NCBI RefSeq assembly: GCF_022479115.1
Contig: NZ_CP092497.1
Location: 2,046,001-2,110,000 of the forward strand
DNA length: 64,000 bases
Direction of reading: 5' to 3'
Source: Amycolatopsis sp. EV170708-02-1
GTDB lineage: Bacteria; Actinomycetota; Actinomycetes; Mycobacteriales; Pseudonocardiaceae
In this document: one piece after another, positions 54,093 to 57,892 of the stretch
Position numbering within the stretch: the first letter of the stretch is position 1
How the letters are laid out: every line of letters begins with the position of its first letter
Notes under the pieces: model-generated
The model's input: only the letters and a program-made list of their open reading frames with translations
Told to the model about the DNA's origin: nothing
Database searches by the model: none
Translations under genes and position numbers: made by a program

Positions 54093-54121
54093 TTGCCACC
54101 TAGGTAAGAGTCGTCTAGACT
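54093..54121 (+). promoter_or_regulatory. Promoter of the four-gene J/VWA/PurA-like/Nudix cassette
   Basis: TTGCCA (54093-54098), 17 bp, TAGACT (54116-54121). The start codon is only 7 bp after the -10 box, so the message is probably leaderless. Confidence 0.65.
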
Positions 54122-54127
54122 CAAACT

Positions 54128-55096
54128 ATGCTCACCAGGGAAGAAGCCGTGAAGGCGGTCGAGAACACGGCCGACGCGGCCGCACTGTTCGCCCGCCACC
54201 GCTACCGCGAACTGGCGGCCGTGCTCCACCCCGACCGCAACCCCGGCGACGCGCGGGCCCACCGCGCGGCCGCCCTGCTCAACCGCCTCCACGACGAGTG
54301 GAAACGGCCCCGGCGGCAGACGGTCACCACGGCGACGTCGGAATACACCCTCCTCGCGCCGCACGCGGTGGGCAGTGTCGCCACGACCTACCGGACCACC
54401 GGCCCGCATCTGGTCAAACTCGTCCGCGATCCGGCGCACAATCCGCTGATCCACGCCGAATGGGAGGCGTTGCGCGCGCTCGACGGCTTCACCGAACGGC
54501 ACCGGTGGCTGCGCCCCTACTACCCGCGGCTGCTCGACACGTCGGGGCCGGTCGCGAGGGGCGACCGCGCGTTCAGCGTTCTCGATCCGCTCGTCGACGG
54601 CTTCATCACCCTCGCCGACATCGGGAAGGCCTTCCCCGGCGGGCTCGACGGCCGCGACTACGCCTGGATACACCGTCGCCTCCTGCGTGCCGTGGCAGGC
54701 GCGCATCGGGCGGGTGTCGTCCACGGCCATCTCACCGCGGACAACGTGCTCGTCCATCCCGGACAGCACGGCATCGTCCTCGTGGGCTGGTCCTTCGCCG
54801 TCGAGGACGGCGTGCTCCCGCTGGCGGCGGACAAGTCCGTCGGCTACCCGCCGGAAGTCCACAAAGGACTGCCGATGACCGCGGCCACCGACGTCCACAT
54901 GCTCCACACCTTGATGCTGGAACTCCTGGCACCGGGCGAAACCCGCCAGCGCGAGTTCGCCAAGTGGTGTCTCCAGGAGATCCCGGCACAACGACCCGAG
55001 GCCGCCGATCTGCTCGACGAGTACGACGAACTGCTCGCCGACCTGTACGGCCCTCGCACCTTCCGACCGTTCACCATCCCCGAGACAGGAGCCTGA
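54128..55096 (+). CDS. J-domain-like protein fused to a pseudokinase domain
   Basis: A 322-residue protein. Residues 1-60 form a short J-domain-like helical region with the HPD motif at 34-36 (VLHPDRNPGD) and a helical AALLNRLHDEW. Residues 75-310 resemble a protein-kinase fold: a beta-3 Lys in GPHLVKLVRD and a catalytic-loop equivalent VVHGHLTADNVLVHP at about 197-211. The catalytic Asp of HRD is replaced by His, and DFG by VGW, so kinase activity is doubtful. It is the first gene of a cassette, with the VWA gene starting 2 bp after its stop. HPD suggests a link to DnaK (inference). Confidence 0.75.
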   Translation: MLTREEAVKAVENTADAAALFARHRYRELAAVLHPDRNPGDARAHRAAALLNRLHDEWKRPRRQTVTTATSEYTLLAPHAVGSVATTYRTTGPHLVKLVRDPAHNPLIHAEWEALRALDGFTERHRWLRPYYPRLLDTSGPVARGDRAFSVLDPLVDGFITLADIGKAFPGGLDGRDYAWIHRRLLRAVAGAHRAGVVHGHLTADNVLVHPGQHGIVLVGWSFAVEDGVLPLAADKSVGYPPEVHKGLPMTAATDVHMLHTLMLELLAPGETRQREFAKWCLQEIPAQRPEAADLLDEYDELLADLYGPRTFRPFTIPETGA

Positions 55097-55098
55097 CC

Positions 55099-56073
55099 AT
55101 GGGACACGGACACTGGGACGACAACGCCTACGCCGCCGCGAAGACCTTCCGCGCGGCCAAGGGTGAGGACGATTTCGGCTACACCGCCGATCTCCGCTCC
55201 AAGCCCGCGAAGGACTGGAAGGTCGCGCCCGCGCTGGACCCGCTGAACGCCGTGCGGGAATGCCGGGATTCGGCCGACCACACCGATTCGACGCCGATCG
55301 CGGTGCTGTTCGACGTCACCGGGTCGATGCGCCGGGTGCCGCGGATCATGCAGGGCAAGCTCGGCAAACTGCACGGCCTGCTGAAGCGCCGGGGCTACCT
55401 GGCCGACCCGCAGGTGCTGTTCGGCGCCATCGGCGACGCCGACAGCGACCGGGTTCCCTTGCAGGTCGGGCAGTTCGAATCGGACAACCGGATGGACGAG
55501 CAGCTGCGCACGATCTTCCTCGAAGGCGGTGGCGGCGGGCAGAAGAGCGAGTCCTACGAACTGGCCGCGTACTTCATGGCCCGCCACGTGGTGACCGACG
55601 CGTGGCAGAACCGCGGCCGCAAGGGCTATCTGTTCATCATCGGCGACGAACTGAACAAGCCCGCGCTGGAGGCCCGCCACATCCGCCGCGTGATCGGGGA
55701 CGACGTGCGGGAGGACATCGACCCGGCCTCGGTGTACCGGGAGCTGGCGCGCAAATGGCACGTCTACTTCGTGCTGCCGAACCAGTCCTCGTACTACAAC
55801 GACCCGCAGATCGGCGAGCACTGGAGCGATCTGCTCGGCCAGAACTTCCTGAAGCTCGACGACCCGGGCGCGGTGTGCGAACTGATCGCCGCCACCATCG
55901 GGCTGGAGGAACGGGTGGTCGACGTCGACCGGGCGCTCGCCGACCTGGCGGACGTCGGCTCGGTCGCCGAAAGCAAGGCGGTCGGCAAGGCGCTGGCGAA
56001 ACTGGGCACCAAATCGGTCGTCACCTCGGCGGTGCCCGAGGCCGGCGGTCCGAGCGACGTGGTGCTGCGATGA
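55099..56073 (+). CDS. VWA-like domain protein
   Basis: ATG at 55099, 324 residues. A basic N-terminus beginning MGHGHWDDNAYAAAKTFR precedes a VWA-like domain with the MIDAS variant DVTGSM in TPIAVLFDVTGSMRRV. Later blocks are FLEGGGGGQKSESYELAAYF, RKGYLFIIGDE and WHVYFVLPNQSSYYNDPQIG. No membrane helix is present, so the protein is cytoplasmic. Overlap with the next gene (ATGA at 56070) indicates tight coupling. Confidence 0.8.
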   Translation: MGHGHWDDNAYAAAKTFRAAKGEDDFGYTADLRSKPAKDWKVAPALDPLNAVRECRDSADHTDSTPIAVLFDVTGSMRRVPRIMQGKLGKLHGLLKRRGYLADPQVLFGAIGDADSDRVPLQVGQFESDNRMDEQLRTIFLEGGGGGQKSESYELAAYFMARHVVTDAWQNRGRKGYLFIIGDELNKPALEARHIRRVIGDDVREDIDPASVYRELARKWHVYFVLPNQSSYYNDPQIGEHWSDLLGQNFLKLDDPGAVCELIAATIGLEERVVDVDRALADLADVGSVAESKAVGKALAKLGTKSVVTSAVPEAGGPSDVVLR

Positions 56074-57263
56074 GTCTTCTCGGCGGTCACGTGGTGGTGG
56101 TCGGGCTCGGCTTCGGCGACGAAGGCAAGGGCGCGGTGGTCGACGCGCTCTGCGCCGCCCGGCCCACCACCGCGGTGGTCCGCTTCAACGGGGGCGCGCA
56201 GGCCGCGCACAACGTCGTCGTGGACGGACGGCACCACACCTTCAGCCAGTTCGGGGCGGGCACGTTCGCCGGCGTGCCCACCCATCTGTCGCGGTTCGTG
56301 CTCGTCGAGCCGTTCGCGCTGGCCGCGGAAGCGCGGCGGCTCGAAACGGCCGGCGTCCGGAATCCGCTCTCACTGCTGAGCATCGACGGCCGGGCGTTGC
56401 TCACGACGCCGTTCCACATCCACGCCAACCGGGCCAGGGAGGAGGCCCGGGGCGTGAACCGGCACGGCTCGTGCGGGAAGGGCATCGGCGAGACCGTCTG
56501 GTACTCGCTGTTACCCGGGGCCGCACCCGGTGACGTGGTGGAGAGCCAGGAGGTGATCGGGACGCCGGGGGAAGCGCCCACGGTCGCCGACTGCGCCCGG
56601 CCGTCGGTGCTGCGGCGCAAACTGGACGCGCTCGCGCGGTTCTACGCGCCGCTCGCCACGCCGCCGCACAGCGTGGACGAACTCGTGGCGCTGTACCGCG
56701 ATTTCGCGGGCGCGGTGCGGATCACCGACGGGGACGAAACGGGGCGGCTGGCGGATTCCGGGCGGCTGGTCTTCGAGGGGGCGCAGGGGGCTCTCCTCGA
56801 CCAGTACCACGGGTTCCATCCGCATACGACCTGGTCGACGACCACGCCGCACAACGCCCGCACCCTGTTGGGCGGACGCCCGCACAGGGTCGTGGGGGTC
56901 ACGCGGACCTACCTCACCCGGCACGGCGCGGGACCGCTGCCGACTGAATCCGCCGCCGTGCTCGCTCGTTTTCCCGAGCGGCACAACGAAACCGGCGAAT
57001 TCCAGGGCGCGTGGCGGGCGGGCCATCTCGACGCGGCCCTGCTGGACTACGCGATCGCGGCCTGCGACGGCGTGGACGCGCTCGCGGTCACCCATCTCGA
57101 CGCGACCGGGTTGAAGGTCGTGCCCCGTGACGGCTCCCCCGCCGTCGACCTGCCGGATCCGCTGGCGTGGTTCGGCGCGCGGCTGCCGGTGGCGGTCACC
57201 GGGTACGGCCCGGACAGGGCCGGTTACCGGGTCGTGGAAGCAAGGTCGACAATCAACGCGTGA
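56070..57263 (+). CDS. Divergent adenylosuccinate-synthetase-like enzyme
   Basis: A 397-residue PurA homologue, about 30 residues shorter than housekeeping PurA. The phosphate loop GFGDEGKG (Asp17, Lys20), the catalytic His47 (GAQAAHNVV), GKGIGE, VFEGAQGALLD and VTRTYLTRHGAGPLPTE are kept. The aspartate-binding loop of PurA (TTGRxRR) is replaced by ETGEFQGAWR, and the guanine motif TKLD reads THLD. It may couple IMP or another nucleotide to a different amine, or use a different NTP. Coupled to VWA and Nudix genes by 4-bp overlaps. Confidence 0.85.
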   Translation: MSLLGGHVVVVGLGFGDEGKGAVVDALCAARPTTAVVRFNGGAQAAHNVVVDGRHHTFSQFGAGTFAGVPTHLSRFVLVEPFALAAEARRLETAGVRNPLSLLSIDGRALLTTPFHIHANRAREEARGVNRHGSCGKGIGETVWYSLLPGAAPGDVVESQEVIGTPGEAPTVADCARPSVLRRKLDALARFYAPLATPPHSVDELVALYRDFAGAVRITDGDETGRLADSGRLVFEGAQGALLDQYHGFHPHTTWSTTTPHNARTLLGGRPHRVVGVTRTYLTRHGAGPLPTESAAVLARFPERHNETGEFQGAWRAGHLDAALLDYAIAACDGVDALAVTHLDATGLKVVPRDGSPAVDLPDPLAWFGARLPVAVTGYGPDRAGYRVVEARSTINA

Positions 57264-57892
57264 TCGAGTCGACGCCGGTGTCCGTTGACGTGCTCGTGGT
57301 GCGGTTCGCCCCCGGCACCCGGAACGTCCTGCTGGGAATCGCGCCGCGAGCGGCGGAGCCTTTCGAGGGGGAACTCGCCCTGCCCGGGGTGCTGCTCGGG
57401 CTCGGAGAACGGCTGCGGGACGCGGCGGGCCGGGCGGTGGTCGGCAAACTCGGCCTCCCGCCCGACGCGGTCTCGGCGACGGGACAGCTCGCCACCTTCG
57501 ACGAGCCGAACCGTGACCCGCGCGGTCCCACGCTCTCCATCGCCTTGTGGGCCACCGTGAATCCCGCGCTCGACGTCCCGGGGAACGTCGTGTGGGCGCC
57601 GCTGGACGAGGTGCCACCGCTGGCTTTCGACCACGACCGGATCGTCGCCGACTGCCGTCCGATGCTGGCCGAACGGCTGTGGCGGGACGTCGCGTTCACC
57701 GCCGGCCTGCTGGGACCGATCTTCACCACGGCACAGGCGCTGGACGCCACCGAAGCGCTGACCGGGGACCGCCCCTATCCCGCCAACCTCGGCCGGACCA
57801 TGGAGCGGGTCCCCGGTTTGCGGCGTACCACCGAACACGCGGCCGCCCTCCCCAAGGGAGGACGGCCGCCGTCGCTGTGGCGCTGGGAGTGA
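57260..57892 (+). CDS. NrtR-like Nudix/winged-helix protein with degenerate Nudix box
   Basis: GTG at 57260 (GTGA overlap); 210 residues. The N-terminal Nudix fold has TFDEPNRDPRGPTLSIALWA, a segment characteristic of NrtR proteins. The Nudix box (GERLRDAAGRAVVGKLGL) lacks the REXXEE catalytic glutamates. The C-terminal 60 residues (FTTAQALDATEALTGDRPYP, RPPSLWRW) match the NrtR winged helix. It may therefore be a nucleotide-sensing DNA-binding regulator rather than a hydrolase. It closes the cassette. Confidence 0.8.
   Translation: MIESTPVSVDVLVVRFAPGTRNVLLGIAPRAAEPFEGELALPGVLLGLGERLRDAAGRAVVGKLGLPPDAVSATGQLATFDEPNRDPRGPTLSIALWATVNPALDVPGNVVWAPLDEVPPLAFDHDRIVADCRPMLAERLWRDVAFTAGLLGPIFTTAQALDATEALTGDRPYPANLGRTMERVPGLRRTTEHAAALPKGGRPPSLWRWE

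Follow-up and report, generated by a model that had tools for sequence, protein, structure and literature searches.

A conserved gene module of actinobacteria, some proteobacteria and large phages links a PurA-like enzyme to VWA, J-domain pseudokinase and Nudix/NrtR-like proteins

What keeps a relative of adenylosuccinate synthetase (PurA) side by side with a J-domain pseudokinase (JK), a VWA protein and a Nudix/NrtR-like protein? The question is raised by a four-gene block at positions 54128-57892 of a 64,000-nucleotide stretch of DNA from Amycolatopsis sp. EV170708-02-1, hereafter the window, which corresponds to positions 2046001-2110000 of a complete 9.66-Mb genome. An earlier note, made from the letters of this stretch, had taken the block to suggest the synthesis and sensing of an unusual purine nucleotide, gated by chaperone and VWA modules and perhaps active in stress or phage response; its positions for all four genes were confirmed. 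Here, we describe the distribution, sequence conservation and predicted regulation of this module. The four genes almost certainly form a real, conserved unit, and the module is common to actinobacteria, some proteobacteria and large phages.

Co-occurrence was determined in a sample of 394 genomes of the class, drawn without regard to gene content, in which PurA-like proteins were counted at an E-value of 1e-50, a limit that excludes ordinary PurA and misses diverged copies that fall below it. VWA was found in 41 genomes and a close PurA-like relative in 39, all 39 of which were among these 41, as compared with about 4 expected by chance. Of the two remaining VWA genomes, one (L046) had no PurA-like match on a contig that stops about 150 bp further on; in the other (L050), tblastn placed a PurA-like gene adjoining VWA. 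The 40 regions around the other VWA matches of this sample included PurA-like in 39, JK in 37 and Nudix in 32 cases. A second scan, seeded by VWA and with 80 of 505 genome loci kept, all of them actinobacterial, detected the PurA-like gene in 79 loci, on the same strand as VWA and at most 116 bp from it, as well as Nudix in 78 and JK in 59. The proposed four-family cassette is thus real, in that its families co-occur across other genomes, but its steadiest part is the pair of VWA and PurA-like, JK being missing from part of the bacterial and viral loci and Nudix from most viral ones. Clustering of the bacterial and viral loci revealed no further true gene family within 9 kb that approaches these frequencies; the largest bacterial neighbour cluster (53/80) was discarded as a partner, as its members are reading frames that run antisense to the PurA-like gene.

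The corresponding viral scan, also seeded by VWA (80 contigs kept of 481), detected the PurA-like gene in 76 contigs, on the same strand as VWA, at a distance of at most 300 bp in 49 contigs and at most 2750 bp overall, together with JK in 71 contigs and Nudix in 4, one of these being weak. Among isolate phages, tblastn detected VWA in 207 records (188 Mycobacterium, 1 Mycolicibacterium, 10 Rhizobium, 6 Vibrio, and 2 others), JK in 190 (189 Mycobacterium and 1 Mycolicibacterium), and PurA-like in 225 (190 mycobacterial, 10 Rhizobium, 6 Vibrio, and 19 others that were not checked), counts that include some RefSeq/GenBank duplicates of one phage. Phages Pleione and ET08 have the gene order kinase, VWA, small gene, PurA-like, while in one Rhizobium and one Vibrio phage VWA adjoins PurA-like without a recognisable JK. 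The 42 phams found in every one of the 160 C1 phages include the kinase and PurA-like genes (PMC9476963). No conserved fourth phage neighbour was found within 9 kb by clustering, no search having been aimed at datZ, mazZ or dpoZ. A nicotinate/nicotinamide phosphoribosyltransferase gene scoring over the NCBIfam cut-off is present in the fetched stretch of four of the 80 viral contigs (L192, L193, L198, and L237), and L192 and L237 additionally carry a nicotinamide mononucleotide-adenylyltransferase/Nudix-like gene that remains below the cut-off. Upstream of the VWA and PurA-like genes of a Rhizobium phage (L079, 2757-6762), metallophosphatase, HAD, PRTase_3, and Nudix genes are encountered, a set that we take to resemble Ter-type nucleoside modules.

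Plasmids are further carriers of the module. Those of Rhodococcus and Tsukamurella carry all four genes in the order of the window, and those of Agrobacterium, Acetobacter, and Rhizobium carry all four with Nudix on the opposite strand; a Variovorax plasmid has the trio of JK, VWA and PurA-like, a Methylorubrum plasmid has VWA and PurA-like, and a Rhodovulum plasmid has JK, VWA and Nudix, PurA-like not being found in the fetched stretch. On an Agrobacterium plasmid (L075, 10304-16698), the module is succeeded by genes for an AAA ATPase, DUF5682 and DUF4132, for which PADLOC gave no match. A search for defence genes beside two plasmid-borne copies gave no PADLOC match among the 5 proteins tested.

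In a quick, midpoint-rooted tree of 162 VWA proteins, at least six changes between viral and bacterial carriers were required, two of them forced by starred branches, as compared with a mean of 53.6 after shuffling. Four proteobacterial copies grouped with those of phages, with good support; the placement of a few viral copies inside the actinobacterial part was weakly supported. From this pattern we infer that the module moved between viral and bacterial carriers more than once. As phages carry the module just as bacteria do, a simple role in anti-phage defence does not suggest itself as the first reading.

The PurA-like protein is a member of PF00709 that matches Escherichia coli PurA (1ade) over its whole length with a profile score of 245 bits, and its residue conservation was assessed among 122 bacterial and 73 viral sequences. 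D17, K20, and H47, which correspond to the catalytic Asp13, Lys16, and His41 of PurA, are kept at 99-100% (the catalytic Asp in 100% of the bacterial and 99% of the viral sequences), and the equivalents of D13, K16, H41, Q224, T239, and the guanine-binding D333 at 96-100%, the range being 97-100% for the three catalytic residues and the guanine-binding Asp; because of their retention, activation of a 6-oxo base dependent on guanosine triphosphate (GTP) is likely to be preserved. Other positions have changed: N38 of PurA is replaced by Gln (Q44) in 100% of the bacterial and 97% of the viral sequences, V273 by His in 100% and 99%, T301 by Gln in 100% and 95%, and T129 by Cys (C135) in 98% and 64%, respectively. 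R303 of PurA touches ribose and aspartate (PMC8342488). Neither this residue nor R143 is conserved in the PurA-like family. N38, T129, and R143 of PurA belong, like R303, to its IMP/Asp pocket, and the changes in the family thus fall where PurA binds the phosphate and the amino acid. In its chemistry the enzyme probably varies the theme of PurA, and on the strength of these sequence comparisons there is good reason to regard the protein as a PurA-type ligase with changed specificity.

Its partner, the VWA protein, matched no Pfam family at an E-value of 1, so that the Pfam VWA model is not reached, and no PDB sequence at an E-value of 10. Its structure model displays a confident I-domain fold in which a DxSxS-type metal site is present, and the metal-site residues are kept at 98-100% in 122 bacterial and 73 viral sequences. 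The protein matches PHROG 2971 (1e-71) and is 98% identical to the VWA protein of Amycolatopsis keratiniphila. In phage ET08 the VWA gene (gp248; L268, 2501-4282) is interrupted in frame by about 765 bases directly before the invariant GDE; this insert runs from a Cys to an Asn that is followed by Cys, gives sub-threshold Hint and intein matches, and appears intein-like. Inteins tend to sit in functional motifs, so the position of the insert beside GDE fits an essential metal site. Two-piece VWA matches were seen in 17 of 60 phage rows among the matches listed, one of them annotated as HNH endonuclease; only ET08 was inspected.

Sequence and structure model indicate that JK is a J-domain fused to a pseudokinase that lacks the kinase catalytic Asp. 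The model is confident (predicted local distance difference test score of 95.6), places the HPD between helices 26-33 and 42-59, and has the human DnaJ-PKA chimera 4wb7 at rank 2 in Foldseek; the name J-domain is based on the HPD and this model, the Pfam DnaJ score being below gathering (19.6 versus 27.8). Each residue of the HPD recurs in 96-99 of the 100 bacterial and 55-60 of the 64 viral sequences. Within the kinase fold, the Lys of the adenosine triphosphate (ATP) site (Lys97 in the window) is retained in 92/100 bacterial and 38/64 viral sequences, the helix-C Glu (Glu111) in 94/100 and 39/64, and Asp at the DFG position in 65/100 and 29/64. The Asp of HRD is His201 in the window and is Asp in none of the 100 bacterial and 3 of the 64 viral relatives, which bears out the previous assignment of a pseudokinase, the catalytic Asp being absent from 100/100 and 61/64 sequences. 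In PADLOC (2023), JK matches kinase models only, the best being MkoA (33.2 bits, 4.2e-9) over the kinase domain. The name adenylate cyclase, which NCBI assigns to many JK relatives, found no support in this analysis. A tblastn search for JK overlooked by the open reading frame caller, covering 35 JK-less loci, returned only a C-terminal remnant of 37 residues; in this Nocardia locus (L112, 8879-8989) the last 37 JK codons precede VWA, possibly reflecting JK loss or an assembly fault.

The Nudix protein matches AraR (5bs6) at 1.2e-10 over residues 8-184, a stretch that takes in both its Nudix-type domain and the C-terminal part, and remains below the NCBIfam NtrR cut-off (23 versus 400 bits); the earlier description of an NrtR-like protein, with a putative winged helix, is in keeping with this match. 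The degenerate Nudix box that had also been described is typical of copies placed downstream, none of which keeps the catalytic residues (0/45), but upstream-placed copies do keep them in 58 of 71 cases. Because the downstream copies lack these residues, the protein in the lineage of the window is most simply read as a sensor. Moreover, the presence of Nudix in 78/80 bacterial but 4/80 viral loci makes it look like regulation rather than the engine of the module.

A candidate site for this regulation lies at the predicted promoter, where transcription is predicted to start at the ATG at 54128 (Table 1). An inverted repeat ends just before this first start codon, the -10 box overlapping its spacer and right arm, and -10-like sequences are found at the equivalent place in relatives. 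Of 12 Pseudonocardiaceae loci, 11 have exact GAGTC-N5-GACTC at a distance of 20 bp before JK and the twelfth has it with one mismatch, and GTTTTAGTC-N5-GACTAAAAC is found at the equivalent place in 5/5 Rhodococcus/Antrihabitans loci. Of 14 Nocardia loci, mostly without JK, 11 display a repeat of the GTTTTAGTC-N5-GACTAAAAC type before VWA and one a repeat of another type, with none reported for two. The GAGTC-type operator was not found in loci of Micromonospora, Actinoplanes, and Catellatospora; upstream of their Nudix-first operons (L123-L164), TTCTCA/TGAG-like repeats, a different operator type, were seen by eye. Position and architecture of the repeat are thus conserved across related lineages, while its letters change. 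As many loci also yield unrelated inverted repeats with the palindrome finder, a repeat alone proves little. Autoregulation of the operon by the Nudix protein through the putative operator nevertheless appears a good deal more plausible than not, and as there is one such site in the genome the protein is probably a local regulator.

Table 1. Positions of the predicted features of the module in the window and of phosphoribosyltransferase stretches in four viral contigs (contig coordinates).
Feature	Positions	Strand	Remarks
Promoter	54093..54121	+	-35 TTGCCA 54093-54098, 17-bp spacer, -10 TAGACT 54116-54121; read from sequence
Putative operator	54105..54125		TAAGAGTC-N5-GACTCAAA; two mismatches between the outer arms in the window copy
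JK	54128..55096	+	J-domain at about residues 1-60 (HPD 34-36) and predicted pseudokinase domain
VWA protein	55099..56073	+	MIDAS-like D72-x-T74-G-S76, D113, E127, E151, G182-D183-E184
PurA-like enzyme family	56070..57263	+	D17, K20, H47, Q239, D344 kept; Q44, C135, H285, Q312 differ from PurA
Nudix/NrtR-like protein	57260..57892	+	Degenerate Nudix box; putative DNA-binding C-terminal part, from similarity to AraR
Phosphoribosyltransferase, L192	10036-12346		Inside or near module
Phosphoribosyltransferase, L198	3882-5306		Inside or near module
Phosphoribosyltransferase, L237	4792-7073		Inside or near module
Phosphoribosyltransferase, L193	3717-5138		Inside or near module

Taken as a whole, the module might combine a GTP-dependent purine ligase of changed specificity with a VWA partner, a DnaK-recruiting JK and, in bacteria, a ligand-sensing repressor, a reading to which we give about an even chance. 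At the expense of GTP, the PurA-like enzyme would activate a purine-type base at its 6-oxo group and couple an amine to it, with a substrate other than inosine monophosphate (IMP), a nucleophile other than free aspartate, or both. The metal site of VWA may bind an acidic or protein-borne substrate, or hold the complex together. JK would recruit DnaK through its HPD loop and act as a non-phosphorylating regulator or adaptor that is dispensable in some lineages. Finally, the bacterial Nudix/NrtR-like protein would repress the operon via the repeat over the -10 box, to be released by a nucleotide-like ligand. More speculatively, and with odds well below even, the PurA-type enzyme, a VWA substrate carrier and the DnaK-recruiting pseudokinase could generate a new class of N6-substituted purines, either as a free signal that is sensed by the Nudix repressor or on a protein-borne amine, in a system that perhaps arose in large phages and was acquired by bacteria repeatedly. 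The interpretation offered in the earlier note is partly supported, as regards the four-family grouping, the pseudokinase and the NrtR-like protein, the synthesis and sensing of an unusual purine nucleotide being a hypothesis. Our confidence in any single biological role is low.

Several observations weigh against the combined reading. JK is missing from 21/80 bacterial loci (16 Nocardia and 5 others) and 9/80 viral loci, and PurA-like from 1/80 bacterial and 4/80 viral VWA loci; in L084 and L081 (plasmid or phage), which carry VWA and JK, PurA-like was not found in the fetched stretch. No Lyase_1 (PurB-type) partner, the candidate for finishing a succinyl-type product, was found in 3/3 phage records searched. 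The pocket residues of the PurA-like enzyme may also have drifted without a new substrate. For the operator, the pattern at up to two mismatches occurs at one genome site (exact), as compared with two for a reversed-pattern control, and with three mismatches allowed it shows no enrichment within the window (4 versus 12.9 expected); as the genome counts are not below the control by much, the evidence for the operator is its conserved place and shared letters and not its rarity.

Other explanations make different use of the same evidence. That the PurA-like protein simply serves as the strain's normal adenylosuccinate synthetase, its neighbours being there by chance, would agree with its membership of PF00709; a full-length PurA is, however, encoded elsewhere in the genome (9417253-9418506; 598 bits, versus 199 bits for the window copy), the NCBIfam purA cut-off is missed (TIGR00184; 129.5 versus 395.55 bits), and the neighbours are conserved. 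The window copy is thus not the sole housekeeping PurA, a point that the earlier note had wanted checked; the housekeeping identity was rejected, and this explanation is vanishingly improbable. DNA hypermodification, or the synthesis of non-canonical deoxynucleoside triphosphates as by PurZ in 2-aminoadenine genomes, is suggested by the occurrence of a PurA relative in large phages and its match to PHROG 1211, labelled '2-aminooxy adenylosuccinate synthetase' (1.1e-65). PurZ, however, has Ser at the position of the catalytic Asp in 147/147 phage sequences (PMC12884076), whereas the PurA-like protein keeps this Asp and the guanine-binding Asp; its profile reaches 47 bits with PurZ (6fm1) versus 245 with E. 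coli PurA, and bacterial chromosomes carry it as well. As the Asp is kept and the NCBIfam PurZ cut-off is missed (NF038379; 32.2 versus 300 bits), membership of the PurZ/Z-DNA group was rejected, and hypermodification is considered improbable.

Alternatively, the enzyme could repair nucleotide pools or counter their depletion, restoring adenine nucleotides, for instance from deaminated ones of the inosine type, after a defence system or damage has destroyed them, which would benefit phages and bacteria. PurA chemistry targets the 6-oxo purine of IMP, loss of what we take to be 5'-phosphate contacts would suit a di- or triphosphate, and the phosphoribosyltransferase genes of the four viral contigs are in line with this proposal; yet such genes of the nicotinamide adenine dinucleotide type occur in 4/80 viral loci only, a count without a background rate, and the changed aspartate loop would be unnecessary for such repair, which we therefore deem unlikely. 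Similarly little probability is assigned to stress or anti-phage signalling of the Ter, MoxR-VWA or ADP-ribose sort. VWA occurs with catalytically broken kinase domains in vWA-MoxR conflict systems (PMC7159879) and with Nudix-HTH regulators in ADP-ribosylglycohydrolase systems (PMC9503650), the module is patchy within the genus (23/80 genomes), JK matches the PADLOC kinase model MkoA, and the Rhizobium phage has genes for PRTase_3, HAD and a metallophosphatase upstream. Against this stand the lack of a PADLOC match for VWA, PurA-like and Nudix at an E-value of 1, the absence of a MoxR ATPase or glycohydrolase as conserved fifth neighbour within 9 kb (clustering), the numerous and diverse viral copies, and the finding of PRTase_3 in 1/10 records searched and not in the strain's own genome, although virus records may be fragments; a general link with Ter, prompted by the Rhizobium phage, was rejected on this count. 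Equipped with a J-domain and VWA, the module might instead aid virion assembly, JK and VWA recruiting DnaK for folding and PurA-like being a structural remnant, in keeping with the proposal that DnaJ domains and a MoxR-VWA pair assist folding or assembly in jumbo phages (PMC7824862). The near-invariance of the PurA-like catalytic residues and the lack, in clustering, of a conserved phage gene accompanying the bacterial copies make this quite improbable.

The module thus keeps together, across distant phages and bacteria, three families without a known connection, and the trio is present in Bxz1-type (cluster C1) mycobacteriophages of teaching collections under the labels 'kinase', 'hypothetical protein', and 'PurA-like'. 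If the GTP-dependent ligase does produce a new purine derivative, it would extend purine chemistry by a branch next to those of PurA and PurZ, and the single operon, with its one putative operator and one candidate sensor, would provide a tractable handle on its use by phage and host. No description of the JK, VWA and PurA-like trio was found in the open-access literature searched, and the earlier note likewise knew of none that unites precisely these four families.

Known systems nevertheless share parts of it. PurA is matched over the whole length by the PurA-like protein, with catalytic and guanine-binding residues kept, but the latter has N38, V273, T301 and mostly T129 changed, conserves neither R143 nor R303, and is paired with a VWA gene. 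PurZ/PurZ0 of the 2-aminoadenine pathway is likewise a phage-borne PurA relative, with Ser where the PurA-like protein has Asp. NrtR/AraR regulators (5bs6, 3gz5) have a Nudix-type domain followed by a C-terminal part that the module's protein matches, and an inverted repeat at its own promoter is a further likeness; the differences are the missed NCBIfam NtrR cut-off and the single genome site. Ter systems contain VWA and kinase-like modules with predicted nucleoside chemistry, but their PRTase module was missing in 9 of the 10 records searched for the present module. The ADP-ribosylglycohydrolase immune systems unite a Nudix-HTH regulator and VWA in one neighbourhood; a term search of the text of PMC9503650 found no mention of PurA-like, and the module is without a conserved glycohydrolase neighbour. 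In vWA-MoxR conflict systems VWA is combined with broken or kinase-like modules, the terms PurA and J-domain being absent from the text of PMC7159879 (term search). In the human DnaJ-PKA chimera (4wb7) a J-domain is placed on the N-terminus of a kinase fold, as in JK, which lacks the catalytic Asp, the likeness being one of architecture only. As far as the open-access literature searched shows, the novelty of the module lies in the composition of the system.

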